Of a stretch of 64,000 bases of DNA, positions 13,572 to 22,949 are shown piece after piece. The DNA lies in NCBI RefSeq assembly GCF_013184775.1, contig NZ_JAATVV010000011.1, forward strand, positions 1 to 64,000, given 5' to 3'. The position numbers and the translations under genes were made by a program. Within the stretch, counting starts at the first letter, position 1; each line of letters begins with the position of its first letter. Below the pieces are notes generated by a model. That model was not told the DNA's origin, made no database searches, and was given only the letters and a program-made list of their open reading frames with translations. This DNA comes from Martelella sp. HB161492. Its GTDB lineage: Bacteria; Pseudomonadota; Alphaproteobacteria; Rhizobiales; Rhizobiaceae.

Positions 13572-13954
13572 CATGATCCGTTCGTGTGACATCGGCGCCA
13601 TAGGGCCGGATGTCCCTGTTAGCGCGATCAGTGCAAAGAGTCTTATGTTCTCCAGAAATTACTTTTGGAATTCTGATTTCAAATTACGGCACATCAATGC
13701 GAACACAGCGGCAGGACAACTGATATTCGGAGCCATGCTGGCTTGTGAGGGCTTCGGGGGGAGCGATCACGATTCAGGGCAGCAGTGCCGATTAATTCGT
13801 GAAATCGCCCGGCCCGCACGCCTGTAAGAATTGGCGTTGCCGGGATCTCATCGCCGTCGAGGCAGACGTTTAGATGCGCGACCGTGATCCTTTTGCGGTC
13901 AAAGTCGCCGCGCGTCGTGGAAATCAACGTATTCACAATTCGAAAGTAAGCGCC
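13572..13954. other. Long gap upstream of the ARM-repeat gene
   Basis: About 380 bases without a supported gene. It looks AT-richer than its neighbours, notably 13640-13730. I looked for a type III secretion tts box, a type IV effector signature and an IS end and saw none. It presumably holds the promoter of the downstream gene. An in-frame ATG at 13874 could extend that gene into this region. Confidence 0.4.
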
Positions 13955-16900
13955 ATGCCTTTGCCGCCCGCACCCTCAACTTTGAGTTCGACTTCCCACG
14001 CTGCAGATGGCAGTTCGTCTGCCGCTGAAGCGACACGTTCAGTGCCGCGCCCCGTTCGGCGCCGAAGACAACAAGTCCGCATTGAGCTGGTGGCTCCTGA
14101 TTCTCCTCCGGCAAAAATAAGCCCGAACTCGGTTTTTTCTGAAGTGAGCGGCCTGGGGCAACCACGTCCCATTGTTTTATCGGCCGTGGCACGGGATCTC
14201 GGCGCAGGGGATCCCGGCGTCCGCAAGCCGGCGCTCGATGCACTGAAAGGGCTATTGGCGCAACGACACGGGCTGGTGAAACCCAAGATCGAGCGTTTTT
14301 CCGTCGAAGACAGCCCGGAACTGGTCCACAACCTGACAAATGTGCTCAACGCGAATGATTTATGTGATGACGCCGAATCTCGAGAAGCGATTCTTGTTGC
14401 TTTGGCCAAGCTGACGCGCGAGACCAAAGATTCAGTCGTCTTGGTTCGGGATCCAGTCGTCGTGAATGCGCTCGTCGAGCGCCTCCAGAACGAGAGCGAG
14501 ATGTCGGTTCGATCGGCATTGACCGGTTGTTTGGAGAATTTGGTATATGACAGTCTTAACAAGACACCCTTGCTGAAAAATAGCGCATTCTTGCCTGCCT
14601 TGGTAGCCCAGCTCAACCGCCAGGACGGGGCGGAGTCGGCTGATGTGCGCGCCCGTTCGTCGAGGATGCTGGAAGCATTGGCAGCCCTGGAAGGTAATCG
14701 CCGTTTCTTCACAGAAAATCCTGACCTTCTTGACGGTCTGATTGCGCATATTTCTGCAAAGGGCGAGCCCGATGCAAAGGTGCGAAATAACATCCAGAAC
14801 GTAATGTACTCTTTGTCATCGCATGTGGGAGAGAAACTTTCCCCGGAACGCACTCAAGCACTCGTCAATGCTGTGCTCGACGCCTCGCAGACGAAAGACG
14901 GTGAATCGGATTATTTGGCTGGATCCGCTTTCAGACTGCTCGCAAAATTGGCTTCCGGTCCCCGTAATTGTATCCTGATGCGGGAGAACGACCGGCTGGT
15001 GAGCGCAATAACAGATGGGCTCGGTAATGCGTCGCGTTTCGATCGGGTGGATGCGGCTGACTTGCTGAAGCGGCTGGCGTTCGCTCGTGAGAACGTGAAA
15101 CCACTGGCGGAGAATACGGAGTTAATGAAGGCTCTGCAGGTTTGTCTTGAATTGCATGGCAGCGAAGGCACCCCGACGCAGATAAGTGCCGCGAGGACAA
15201 TCCGATTTCTCATGCTGAACAAAGATGTCAGTGACCTTCTCCTTTCAAGCCAACCAGATTTTTTGGATGTGTTGCAGGAGCAACTGAACAACAAGGATTA
15301 TTCCGTTCGGACAGATGTGTTTTTCGCTCTGCTAAATCCAATTCGAAGGTCAGTTAATATAGACAAAGCCATAGAAAATGGAGCCATAGAGAGGGTCTTG
15401 CACGAGGTACTTAGTGATGGCGGGAAAGATCTCCGGGAGAATGGCGCATACATGGCACGTTCGCTAACGACGAATGCTGCTTTTCGCGCGAGAATCGAAG
15501 CAAATCCGGATATATTAACTGACATTTTGAGTCTGACCGCCCCTGAGGAGAAAGCAAGCATCCGGATAGCCGGACTTGGCGCACTGGGAAGTCTGGCGAG
15601 CGATCCTCAAAGTGCCCAAAGGTTATCAGCAAATCCGAAGGTGCTGAATGCTCTGGTGGCCACTCTTGATCTTCCCGACACGCCGATGACAGATCCGAAT
15701 GCAGCTTATCAGGGTGTGCACGGCAAAGCATCCATGGCACTGGCGAACATTGCAAGCTTTCCTGAAACGCATGCAAATTTGAGGAGAGCGCCGGGCCTGA
15801 AGGGCGCCCTGGAACGTAACATGAACCATGAAGAGGATCTTGTTCGCGACAAGATCATGGCTGTTGCGACCGAACTGGGACTTGTTTCCGAGAGATTTGA
15901 TCCGCAGAATACACACAGAGGAGAGGTCCACGATCGTGCATCAACCAATGCCAGCTTGCTCAAGTCCAGGTTCAGTGGACGTGATCTGGAGCAGGCGTTC
16001 AATGGGCTATGCAAGGACATCAAACGTCTCGATATTACCGGAGCAGCCATCGATCCATTTCGCCACGCCAATCAAGGATATCGGCGACAGGTCGCTCAGA
16101 AGTGGCTCGTCCCGGTAGAACACGCCTTGGTCGAGGCTAAATCGATATCACTGGCCGACGCGGTACAGGCGTCCAGCGCAGCAGAACAGATAGCGAAGCG
16201 TGCGCGGACTGCCGCGAAAAGCGCAGCACTGGAAGCAAGAAACGCTGAAGCGGAACGCGCTGCAGACCCCGAAAACCAGGCCCTGGTGGAAAAGGCAGAA
16301 AAGGCGGCAGAGAAGGCCGCGCGCCTCAAATCTGAAGCCGACGCAAAAGCAGAATCTGCTTCATACGCGGTGCAGATTTCCCATTTTGCGCATGTCGATC
16401 AGGCATCCGGCACAAGCGTGCAAGACTTCCTCGGCTTGTTCTGGCTAGCCGTCACTGATGAGGCCAGTCGTGAAAAAGACGTAACGCAAGACGATGGTCT
16501 CGATGCGATCGCCAATGCACTTTACGAAATTGCCAGAGCTTACAATCTCAGCGAAAATGAGCCACCCGAGGATGATGGCGAAGCAGCGAGAAGTAGTTGT
16601 TCTGGCGGTGCCTTCAACAAAATCTCCGAGAAAATGATTTCTGTGATCGCCGGCATCGATACGACTGCGCTGACCCCGCAGGTCGTCAGGGACAGACTGC
16701 ATTTTGTCATCCGGCAACATGTTGCGGAACTGAGTGCCACGGATCCTGACGTGGATCAGGCGATCAGAGAGAATGACAACTATCTGACCCAAGGCGTCTG
16801 GGAGCGGATAAAGGATGCTGTTCTGACGAAAATCCGAGAGGACCTCGACACGGTACCATCGTCGTCCGCTGATGACCTTAACGCGCGACTTGAAACCGAG

Positions 16901-16957
16901 GCCGATTTTCCCACAGCGCTGGCCTATCTGCATTGTGGGCCCCGCTCGGAGCGCTGA
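13955..16957 (+). CDS. Large armadillo/HEAT-like repeat protein of unknown function
   Basis: About 1000 residues with no recognised enzyme domain. Residues 1-60 are Ser/Pro/Ala/Arg-rich and low-complexity. From about residue 80 to 640, roughly 40-residue helical repeats recur, with V(R/D)...ARSLxxLA-type helices and NPDLL/NPKVL/QPDFLDVL turns, which fits an armadillo or HEAT solenoid. An Ala/Glu/Lys-rich coiled-coil stretch follows (about 715-790). The C-terminal part contains SCSGGAFNKISEKM at about residue 880. No signal peptide or membrane segment is seen. The base composition looks AT-richer than the neighbours and the gene stands alone, which suggests acquisition. The ATG at 13955 is preferred for its Pro/Ser-rich start, but 13874 (same frame, 27 residues longer) is possible; neither has a strong site. 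Confidence 0.7.
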   Translation: MPLPPAPSTLSSTSHAADGSSSAAEATRSVPRPVRRRRQQVRIELVAPDSPPAKISPNSVFSEVSGLGQPRPIVLSAVARDLGAGDPGVRKPALDALKGLLAQRHGLVKPKIERFSVEDSPELVHNLTNVLNANDLCDDAESREAILVALAKLTRETKDSVVLVRDPVVVNALVERLQNESEMSVRSALTGCLENLVYDSLNKTPLLKNSAFLPALVAQLNRQDGAESADVRARSSRMLEALAALEGNRRFFTENPDLLDGLIAHISAKGEPDAKVRNNIQNVMYSLSSHVGEKLSPERTQALVNAVLDASQTKDGESDYLAGSAFRLLAKLASGPRNCILMRENDRLVSAITDGLGNASRFDRVDAADLLKRLAFARENVKPLAENTELMKALQVCLELHGSEGTPTQISAARTIRFLMLNKDVSDLLLSSQPDFLDVLQEQLNNKDYSVRTDVFFALLNPIRRSVNIDKAIENGAIERVLHEVLSDGGKDLRENGAYMARSLTTNAAFRARIEANPDILTDILSLTAPEEKASIRIAGLGALGSLASDPQSAQRLSANPKVLNALVATLDLPDTPMTDPNAAYQGVHGKASMALANIASFPETHANLRRAPGLKGALERNMNHEEDLVRDKIMAVATELGLVSERFDPQNTHRGEVHDRASTNASLLKSRFSGRDLEQAFNGLCKDIKRLDITGAAIDPFRHANQGYRRQVAQKWLVPVEHALVEAKSISLADAVQASSAAEQIAKRARTAAKSAALEARNAEAERAADPENQALVEKAEKAAEKAARLKSEADAKAESASYAVQISHFAHVDQASGTSVQDFLGLFWLAVTDEASREKDVTQDDGLDAIANALYEIARAYNLSENEPPEDDGEAARSSCSGGAFNKISEKMISVIAGIDTTALTPQVVRDRLHFVIRQHVAELSATDPDVDQAIRENDNYLTQGVWERIKDAVLTKIREDLDTVPSSSADDLNARLETEADFPTALAYLHCGPRSER

Positions 16958-18157: not shown

Positions 18158-18436
18158 TCACATGCAGCTCTCTTCAAGTGCTTCCAGCATGGCAAGCGTA
18201 TCATCGTCCTGCAGCGTCTCGAGCAACTCGCGCAGCGTTGACACGTAGTTATGCAGCACCCTGAGGTCGTCGAACCCCTGTGACAGGGCCTTGTCGCGCT
18301 GCTGGAAGAAATAGGGCCAGAACGGGCTCGTCTCACGCGCCCTGTGGGCTTCAAGCTTCGCCATGATCGCGGCACTGCGGTTCTCCCAGTCAGCCCCTTT
18401 GAAGCTGACATAGCGGTCGTAGTTGGATTCGCTCAT
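18158..18436 (-). CDS. cowN: CowN, protects nitrogenase from carbon monoxide
   Basis: A 92-residue protein matching CowN, the small protein that sustains N2-dependent growth under CO in Rhodospirillum rubrum. Family landmarks are YDRYVSFKGADWENR at the N-terminus, FWPYFFQQRDKA, HNYVSTLRELLETL and the closing DDDTLAMLEALEESCM. The ATG at 18436 is preferred to one 13 codons upstream because AGGAG lies 9 bases before it. It follows a CooA-like regulator gene on the same strand, and a CooA-type operator sits upstream. No nitrogenase gene is in the window. Confidence 0.87.
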   Translation of the reverse strand: MSESNYDRYVSFKGADWENRSAAIMAKLEAHRARETSPFWPYFFQQRDKALSQGFDDLRVLHNYVSTLRELLETLQDDDTLAMLEALEESCM

Positions 18437-18463
18437 CTCGTCTTGCTCCTGTCCGTTGACGGG

Positions 18464-18469
18464 ATGATA
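18464..18469 (-). promoter_or_regulatory. Candidate -10 box of cowN
   Basis: TATCAT on the reverse strand. A start point about 7 bases downstream (near 18457) would put the CooA-type operator centre at about -41.5, the class II activator position. No good -35 box is present, as expected for an activated promoter. Confidence 0.45.
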
Positions 18470-18490
18470 GGTCAAGTCAGTGCCGTCGTC

Positions 18491-18506
18491 TGTCAGCTGG
18501 CCGACA
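18491..18506 (-). promoter_or_regulatory. CooA-type operator upstream of cowN
   Basis: TGTCA-GCTGGC-CGACA read on the + strand: the two half sites and N6 spacer known for R. rubrum CooA targets. The centre lies 62 bases upstream of the cowN ATG and in the 101-base gap between the CooA-like gene and cowN. The regulator keeps the RQT(A/T)ST recognition-helix sequence expected to read this site. Confidence 0.75.
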
Positions 18507-18537
18507 GTAAATGTTGCATCGCACCAATTAATGACTG

Positions 18538-19197
18538 TCAGATCTCGGCTTCGCCCGCCCAGCGGCGCAACCTCTCGGGCTGAAGAATGACCAGTGCATT
18601 TCGTCCCTGACGCGCGATCGCGCCGTCGCGCAGCATGGCATTCAATTCCGTTGACGCCGTCTGCCGGGTCGTGCCGATCAGCGTGGCGATCTGCTCCATG
18701 CTAAGATCAAGCTTGACGGTCGTGCCGGCAGCAAGCTGGCTGGTCTGAGTTGAACCGAGACGGATGAGGTAGCGGGCAAAGCGCCCGCGAACCGGATGAA
18801 AGGCCAGATCCTCGATGATTGTCATCGTCTTGGCCAGCGTTGCCGCGAGCACCCGAAGAATGGCCTCCTGCAGCAGCGGGTAGTGGGCGAACTGCCGTTC
18901 GACCACTTGGCGCGGCGCGATCAGCACCGCACTGTCTTCCTGGGCGCTCAACTGCGCCCGTGTATGGGTACTGAAGACATCGCCGGGCAAGAGATAGCCG
19001 AGACTGAGCTCACGATCCTCATTCGCCAGATAGAGCCGCAACCGACCCTGACGCACGATCAGGATCCGATCCTCCCTGTCATCCGGTAGCAGCATTCCCG
19101 CAGTGAAATGCTGTTCGGTGAACAGCCTGCGCAATTCGGCCCCTTCTTCGCCGTCGATAAACGCGGCAAGCGAGGGATGTTGGGTCGTGGTCCGCAT
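18538..19197 (-). CDS. cooA: CooA-like Crp/Fnr-family carbon monoxide sensor
   Basis: A 219-residue Crp/Fnr regulator with a cyclic-nucleotide-binding-fold sensor domain (to about residue 125), a dimerisation helix with TIEDLAFHPVRGR, and a winged HTH with LIGTTRQTASTELNAM. It resembles CooA across the whole length: GRLRLYLANEDRELSLGYLLPGD aligns with the CooA beta-roll, and the haem His77 equivalent is His78 in DVFSTHT. The ferric-haem ligand Cys75 of R. rubrum CooA is Ser here. Upstream of cowN on the same strand. The ATG at 19197 is chosen by length; a TTG at 19221 would add eight residues (MAPAQAFL). Confidence 0.78.
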   Translation of the reverse strand: MRTTTQHPSLAAFIDGEEGAELRRLFTEQHFTAGMLLPDDREDRILIVRQGRLRLYLANEDRELSLGYLLPGDVFSTHTRAQLSAQEDSAVLIAPRQVVERQFAHYPLLQEAILRVLAATLAKTMTIIEDLAFHPVRGRFARYLIRLGSTQTSQLAAGTTVKLDLSMEQIATLIGTTRQTASTELNAMLRDGAIARQGRNALVILQPERLRRWAGEAEI

Positions 19198-19336
19198 CAA
19201 AAATGCCTGAGCTGGCGCCAAAGAGCGCGAAGACGGGAACAGAGTGCAATAGTTTCACAACCGGAGCATACGGGCAACAGACAGACATGCACCGGCAGAC
19301 GCATCATCGCGCAACCGGTGCCTTGCATGCCCCCCC

Positions 19337-19407
19337 GCGCTCTATCTTATTGAGTCTACGCATCGTTTCTTTCGAAAAGCGATTCCGATTTTCGAGCCGG
19401 TGCGCTA
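19337..19407 (-). repeat. Dispersed palindromic repeat, copy A
   Basis: One of four related elements in the window. Read on the reverse strand it begins CTAGCGCACC, has a central hairpin (TCGAAAATCG...CGCTTTTCGAAAG) and ends ATTC/CTCAATAAGATAGAGCGC. The TAG in its first four bases is the stop codon of the caspase-like gene. Confidence 0.8.
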
Positions 19408-20703
19408 GTGGCAGCCAAACGACTTTTCCAAGGCTGCGATCCGGGCAACCTCGGCTCGCTCTGCGACGGTCAGCGGTGCATTGGCTGCAGTCACCCCGGC
19501 AATGCAGTCGGCGTTTGAAAAGGCGGCCTTGCCGCGTGCGCTGGTAAAGCAATAGCCGTATTTGTCAAACAGCGTGTTTCGCGCAAGCCACAGTGACTGG
19601 CACTGATCCTCTGCCGCCGCCGGCGCGGTCGAGCGGTTGGCCTGCCGGATCCAGTTGGAATGGGCCCACCCCTCCTGCCCCGCTTCCGTTGCGACATGGA
19701 TCCAGGCGCCGTCCACACCAAGCACGGCAAGCGCGGTGCCTTCCGAGAGCTTGCCAATCATGGACGCGTTCGACGCAGCACCGGAACGAAGTGCGAGAAA
19801 CCCGTCGCCACCGGGATCAAGCCCCGTGACGCGCCAGGAAAAATCCCGTGTGGCCGGCGCCGGCGGAACCGTGGCGGGCTTGAGCTGCGGCATTGCGGCG
19901 ACAAGCGACTGAGCGGCTTTCTCGCCGGCAGCGCGCCCATCGTCACTGCCGAGAAAAATCTCTTCGATCAGCGACGAGTTTTCCCAGGGAACCTGACTTC
20001 CGTCGGTCGCAGACACCACATCGGAGCGAACCTTGCGCATCATCGCATGGAGATCGTCGTCGGGCTCGGAAAGATGCGTCAGCAGCGCTTCGGTGAAAGG
20101 GCTGTTGCGGCCATTGCCGTCGAGCGCAACGTTTCCGGGTTGCGTCGAGAATGCGATATAGGAGCCGACTCCGGCATCGATGCGTGCCAGCCCCCGGCTC
20201 GCACCGCCAACAGAACGTGCTTTCAGACCGACGAGAAACGGGTTGTTGCGGCAAGCATCGAGGATAACGATGTTGCGGTCGGCCCGCATCTCCATCTCAC
20301 GCAGAATGGTCTGGAGACTGACCGAGGAGGCTTTCAGACGCACCTCGTCATCGCCACGGGCATCAACGGGCAGAACGAAATTTTCAGCACCGATCTGAAT
20401 GCCATGACCGGAAAAGTAGAACAGCGCAACGGCATCCGGCTGCAGGGCATCCGACATGCGCGACGTCAGCTGCAGCATGTCGACCCGGTTCAGATCATAG
20501 CCATCAAAGACGTCGAAGCCCAGTTGCCGCAGCGCCTCGGCCACGTCACGGGCATCCTGCGCCGCATTGGGAAGAAAGGGTACGTTTGAATAGCCGGAAT
20601 TGCCGATCACCAGAGCAATGCGCTGGCTGGCCTGCACGCAGGTCCATGACAGGAGAAACAAGACAAATCCGGCGAAACCGGCACGCAGAGCTCTGGCCGT
20701 CAT
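19405..20703 (-). CDS. Caspase-family secreted protein with SH3 and YARHG domains
   Basis: 432 residues. An N-terminal signal peptide (about residues 1-25) is followed by a C14-type caspase/metacaspase domain: RIALVIGNSGYSNVPFLPN opens it, the catalytic dyad is His100 in YFSGHG and Cys151 in ILDACRNNPF, and EIFLG closes the domain. A bacterial SH3-like segment (GFLALRSGAASNASM to GWAHSNWIRQ) and a C-terminal YARHG-type segment (LWLARNTLFDKYGYCF) follow. Likely exported to the periplasm or envelope; the substrate and role are unknown. Both catalytic residues are intact, so activity is plausible. The stop codon lies in a dispersed repeat. Confidence 0.87.
   Translation of the reverse strand: MTARALRAGFAGFVLFLLSWTCVQASQRIALVIGNSGYSNVPFLPNAAQDARDVAEALRQLGFDVFDGYDLNRVDMLQLTSRMSDALQPDAVALFYFSGHGIQIGAENFVLPVDARGDDEVRLKASSVSLQTILREMEMRADRNIVILDACRNNPFLVGLKARSVGGASRGLARIDAGVGSYIAFSTQPGNVALDGNGRNSPFTEALLTHLSEPDDDLHAMMRKVRSDVVSATDGSQVPWENSSLIEEIFLGSDDGRAAGEKAAQSLVAAMPQLKPATVPPAPATRDFSWRVTGLDPGGDGFLALRSGAASNASMIGKLSEGTALAVLGVDGAWIHVATEAGQEGWAHSNWIRQANRSTAPAAAEDQCQSLWLARNTLFDKYGYCFTSARGKAAFSNADCIAGVTAANAPLTVAERAEVARIAALEKSFGCH

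Positions 20704-22628: not shown

Positions 22629-22704
<76 letters not shown>

Positions 22705-22873: not shown

Positions 22874-22949
<76 letters not shown>

Follow-up and report, generated by a model that had tools for sequence, protein, structure and literature searches.

What does a regulator resembling the CO sensor CooA do beside cowN, the gene of a nitrogenase CO-protection protein, in a stretch of Martelella sp. HB161492 DNA that carries no nif genes? The window that we examined is the whole stretch of 64,000 nucleotides, and its sequence pointed, at a probability of roughly 87%, to a CO-responsive haem regulator of the CooA type that would activate the adjacent cowN from one class-II site, with CowN in turn guarding nitrogenase. 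In the mechanism that we propose, CO would bind a ferrous haem ligated by His78 and, probably, the N-terminal amine, and the CO-bound dimer would then bind 18491-18506 beside a sigma-70 -10 element and recruit polymerase. In the presence of CO, CowN would thereby sustain the activity of a Mo-nitrogenase whose genes lie on another contig. The features of the locus are as follows.

18538 to 19197, minus strand: gene of a cooA-type Crp/Fnr regulator, 219 aa, ATG start; His78 corresponds to Rhodospirillum rubrum His77, and Ser76 stands at the Cys75 position
18491 to 18506, minus strand: predicted CooA operator TGTCGGCCAGCTGACA, TGTCG-N6-TGACA on the coding strand
18464 to 18469, minus strand: inferred -10 element TATCAT, 21 bp downstream of the operator
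18457, minus strand: inferred cowN transcription start, from the operator and -10 geometry
18158 to 18436, minus strand: cowN, nitrogenase CO-protection protein, 92 aa, with NF033689 and PF20543 matches

The two genes, the 101-base gap between them (on the minus strand the regulator gene precedes the gap and cowN follows it) and the site at 18491-18506 were found as the first-pass annotation had described them. The identity of CowN was borne out, since the protein, scored in a 105-aa form, exceeded the cut-offs of both family models, with 103.2 bits against NF033689 (cut-off, 48) and 87 bits against PF20543 (cut-off, 27). Its most likely start, judged from alignment, is the ATG at 18436, because cowN relatives align from there. 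For the regulator, the ATG at 19197 is a likelier start than the TTG at 19221, since the gene of Martelella alba carries an ATG at almost the corresponding position. Thus, the pair would span 18158-19197 and not extend to 19221, as had been proposed.

To place the regulator, solved structures were searched, and the CooA chain 1FT9 was its best relative (1.5e-32); further CooA chains were 2FMY (2e-30), 2HKX (7.1e-30) and 6CPB (5.3e-17), and the best non-CooA chain was at 4.2e-16. 1FT9 is CooA of R. rubrum, and 2FMY and 2HKX are CooA-1 chains, the former from Carboxydothermus hydrogenoformans. By sequence, then, the regulator is CooA-like, with R. rubrum CooA as its best solved relative. Among the Pfam models, the Crp helix-turn-helix was above its cut-off. 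Two family searches count against the CooA-cowN reading: the cNMP-type sensor domain of Pfam fell just below its cut-off (25.9 versus 27.5 bits), and no NCBIfam cut-off was passed, the name CooA being absent from the 8 models listed.

The haem ligands were compared by alignment to 1FT9, in which R. rubrum residue numbers were counted from F23. His78 aligned to R. rubrum His77 and Ser76 met Cys75, which upheld the earlier calls of a retained haem His and of a Ser in place of the haem-ligating Cys. We then aligned six cowN-linked CooAs, namely, those of the window, M. alba (L003), two Novosphingobium loci (L004 and L005), L040 and Rhodobacter sp. CZR27 (L042). The His was invariant, and the Cys75 position was occupied by Ser in four proteins, by Val in two and by Cys in none. 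These data indicated that the loss of Cys is not special to the window, and the R. rubrum thiolate would be lacking across the compared group. Two further residue differences count against the CooA-cowN reading: Gly117 of R. rubrum is Ala in the window regulator (counted from the 1FT9 alignment), and the likely N-terminus, in a region where the first residues align poorly, is Met-Arg-Thr, unlike the Pro2 or Ala2 of studied CooAs. The L042 protein begins Met-Pro, like R. rubrum CooA with its Pro2. An AlphaFold model of the regulator, built from 4 sequences, was discarded as too poor (mean pLDDT, 65.6; pTM, 0.42; residues 61-79, including His78, below 50).

With Ser at the Cys75 position, the protein might be a haem Crp/Fnr sensor of another ligand or redox state, such as NO or O2, that has lost its Cys ligand, and the literature, in excerpt, describes the haem Crp/Fnr protein HcpR as sensing NO and PgRsp as a proposed redox sensor. 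We regard this as highly unlikely, since the His in the FxTH motif and the IE-LAF helix stretch were kept in all six cowN-linked proteins, the best solved match is a CooA and the partner gene is cowN. Moreover, the ligands of ferrous, inactive R. rubrum CooA are reported to be His and Pro2, not Cys (PMC9670170, excerpt), and the haem of C. hydrogenoformans CooA is held by Ala2 and His82, with no ligand switch upon redox change (PMC6955866, excerpt). Given these two reports, loss of Cys need not harm CO sensing, and from the latter we take the Cys75 ligand to be non-defining for CooA. CO thus remains the predicted signal for the window regulator.

Within the gap, the coding strand reads TGTCGGCCAGCTGACA, which agrees with the CooA consensus tGTCg-N6-tGACa (PMC8047169, excerpt) at 10 of 10 specified positions, so the CooA target pattern seen at first pass was real. 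The operator is centred at 18498.5, which is 62.5 bases before the cowN ATG, and when TATCAT is set at -12 to -7, the centre falls at -41.5, the position of a class-II activator. A distance of about 41.5 bases to the cowN start, as originally given, therefore holds for the inferred transcription start (around 18457), which fits TATCAT, and not for the ATG at 18436. R. rubrum CooA is known for class-II activation. Among 300,000 random 101-base gaps, a degenerate operator occurred in 105, and an operator together with TANNNT at 20 to 22 bp occurred in none.

Conservation of this arrangement was evaluated at 12 distinct cowN loci, six with an adjacent cooA and six without cooA in the stretch around the locus. 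TGTCR-N6-TGACA and a TANNNT were present in all six cooA-cowN loci, the spacing between them being 21 bases in five and 20 in one, and the operator is thus kept in the relatives that keep the pair. At cowN loci without an adjacent cooA (L031-L034, L039 and L041), an operator matching at least 9 of the 10 positions was found at cowN in 0 of 6; L041 had one such site elsewhere.

As for nitrogenase itself, the statement that the window lacks nif genes held for nifH and nifK, all matches to which lie on contig 2, but it gave an incomplete picture, since a Mo-nitrogenase cluster is present elsewhere in the genome. On contig 2, nifA (755.6 bits), nifV, nifH (452.8 bits), nifD, nifE, nifN, modA and nifK (889 bits) were over their cut-offs; a NifS-like desulfurase scored 480.8 bits, below the cut-off of 530.75, and a gene read as fixA gave an EtfB-type match below cut-off. 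Searches of the genome for CO metabolism revealed no CooS-type anaerobic CO dehydrogenase, and matches to CoxL stayed below its cut-off, the best reaching 123 of 991 bits.

The exact pattern TGTCR-N6-YGACA was found at 30 places genome-wide, versus 11 for a reversed control pattern. Open reading frames of at least 120 aa, some of them possibly spurious, overlap 27 of these places, including all four of the nif stretch described below, and two further places outside such frames (L066 and L070) were rejected as regulon members, the -10 being absent at the right spacing. A class-II-spaced -10 accompanied the pattern at the cowN site only (1 of 30). Within this strict pattern, CooA therefore looks dedicated to cowN, as had been suggested, with no second operator plus class-II -10 in the genome.

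The four nif places lie in the nif stretch C2:115000-136000 of contig 2, where the one at C2:125624-125639 precedes the nifH ATG by 213 bases, and they bear on another reading of the cowN site, in which 18491-18506 would be a NifA upstream activator sequence (TGT-N10-ACA), cowN would be driven by NifA and sigma-54, and CooA would play a minor part. Indeed, nifA is encoded in the genome, the cowN site fits TGT-N10-ACA, and 4/5 TGT-N10-ACA sites of that nif stretch also fit the CooA pattern. The same was found for 4/5 such sites in a 35-kb nif stretch of the genus member G385, and for 2/4 in a 20-kb nif stretch of G386, a genus member with nif genes and without a CowN or CooA match. In Gluconacetobacter diazotrophicus, moreover, CooA and NifA sites are reported to overlap before cowN, and CowN expression also depends on NifA (PMC8047169, excerpt). 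From pattern and place, the CooA-like sites in nif stretches are best read as NifA sites. Since NifA-like sites fit the operator pattern, a match to it in a diazotroph is by itself poor evidence for CooA; the pattern not being CooA-specific, it is the -10 spacing that decides.

That spacing, together with three further observations, makes control of cowN by NifA quite improbable. TATCAT stands at 21 bp, and a TANNNT at 20 to 21 bp is found in all six pairs. The -24/-12 pattern of sigma-54 promoters, GG-N10-GC, occurs nowhere in the gap of the window, and none lies within 80 bases downstream of the site in 4/5 other pairs, the one in L004 overlapping the cowN start. The half-site TGTCAG/CTGACA is present in 6/6 cowN sites and in 0/10 CooA-like nif sites (four from this genome, four from G385 and two from G386; 7 distinct sequences), and it is not unique to the cowN site, occurring at 4 others among the 30 places. 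Activation of cowN by CooA thus remains the preferred reading.

It is also conceivable, at rather long odds, that in this lineage the operators recognised by CooA and by NifA are nearly identical (TGTCR-N6-YGACA), in which case CO-bound CooA may occupy the NifA-like sites before nifH and other genes of the nif cluster, and NifA may occupy the cowN site. If true, shared DNA sites would integrate CO and nitrogen signals by way of a Cys-less, perhaps redox-insensitive CooA. The nif-type sites of G386, which has no CooA match, speak against CooA having shaped such sites.

The distribution of the two genes was surveyed at several levels, with G385 and M. alba (L003) taken as one genome and counted once. 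Of the 13 genus genomes, three have nifK, and two of these three also have CowN, which was found in no other; the presence of nif genes in G386 without a CowN or CooA match counts against the CooA-cowN reading. CowN is scarce more broadly, occurring in 5/385 class genomes and 5/398 phylum genomes (the genome studied here and G043 are in both counts). A CooA-profile match at E 1e-20 was obtained in three of the nine CowN genomes searched and not in the other six, one of which is only 81% complete. Because of these six and G386, neither gene would strictly need the other. Searching the 385 class genomes for CooA returned our own genome and three weak matches, among them L077, a Crp relative (E 2.9e-28) without an equivalent of His77, and in the class of G404 the only match among 48 genomes was G404 itself. 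Single-sequence searches miss divergent CowN, as the window CowN matched no plasmid record although one holds CowN. The regulator had matches in 21 plasmid records, of which H1 and H3 were looked at, and a Bhargavaea locus (L006) with 21 residues matched was dropped as a chance match. In Azospirillum lipoferum 4B plasmid AZO_p4, an annotated gene of 1764 bases (L061:4759-6522), near an aldehyde ferredoxin oxidoreductase gene, encodes a protein whose later part is CooA-type-like (31.9% identity over about 160 residues), possibly a fused sensor.

The surroundings of the pair differ among the loci. In both Novosphingobium loci (L004 and L005), nifN flanks it on one side and nifU-nifS on the other, with all three genes over cut-off in each locus; in M. 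alba, cooA-cowN adjoins gcvP; and in the window, a 1027-aa open reading frame and a hydrolase gene lie between gcvP and the pair. This frame (13874-16957, plus strand) is not there in M. alba L003, and its sole Pfam match at E 0.01 was ARM_PUB (41.2 bits; cut-off, 33). Just upstream of cooA, 19405-20703 (minus strand) encodes a caspase-domain (Peptidase_C14) protein with SH3 and YARHG domains and, by eye, a signal-peptide-like start. Two tRNA-Lys (ctt) genes lie close together at 22629-22704 and 22874-22949 (minus strand), and they explain short open reading frames on the other strand with identical end residues.

CooA serving cowN had been regarded as unusual, yet precedent is published. According to an excerpt of PMC8047169, G. 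diazotrophicus has the order algH-cooA-cowN, where a CooA site that overlaps a NifA site lies 60 bp ahead of cowN, and the same source cites CooA regulation of cowN in Rhodobacter capsulatus; in Rubrivivax gelatinosus CBS, cooA adjoins cowN, and two relatives have both genes without genes of anaerobic CO metabolism (PMC4257681, excerpt). The window resembles R. capsulatus and G. diazotrophicus in that a diazotroph carries cowN together with a regulator of the CooA type, and its operator centre, 62.5 bases before the ATG, may be set against the 60 bp of the latter. It differs from both in that the pair and nifHDK lie on different contigs and in that no TGT-N10-ACA occurs over the 400 bases that precede cooA; three loose GG-N10-GC matches there (-300, -136 and -125) were unconvincing by eye. 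In R. capsulatus, cooA reportedly adjoins nifHDK and is under NifA, a description ascribed to Hoffmann in 2014.

R. rubrum CooA (1FT9) has the sequence family and His77 in common with the window regulator, which differs in its Ser for Cys75, its Ala for Gly117, its Met-Arg N-terminus and a genome in which anaerobic CO dehydrogenase was not found. With C. hydrogenoformans CooA (2FMY) it shares the THTRA stretch at the ligand position; that protein keeps a Cys at the Cys75 position, where Ser is found here, and is known from a CO-oxidising organism. Youn is said to have described CooA homologues of other bacteria in 2004.

Taken together, the CooA type, CowN, the operator, the His and the Ser of the first-pass annotation held by sequence, and the absence of nif genes and the service of CooA to cowN did not hold as surprises. 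Because cooA-cowN is published in diazotrophs, the window pair is a well-preserved new example and not a new system. It carries the warning that a CooA operator pattern alone is insufficient for calls in diazotrophs, where NifA-like sites fit. The cowN-linked CooAs compared (6/6) are all without the Cys75 ligand, and the known occurrences of cooA next to cowN now extend to Martelella-type Rhizobiales and Novosphingobium, all compared pairs having retained the activator geometry.
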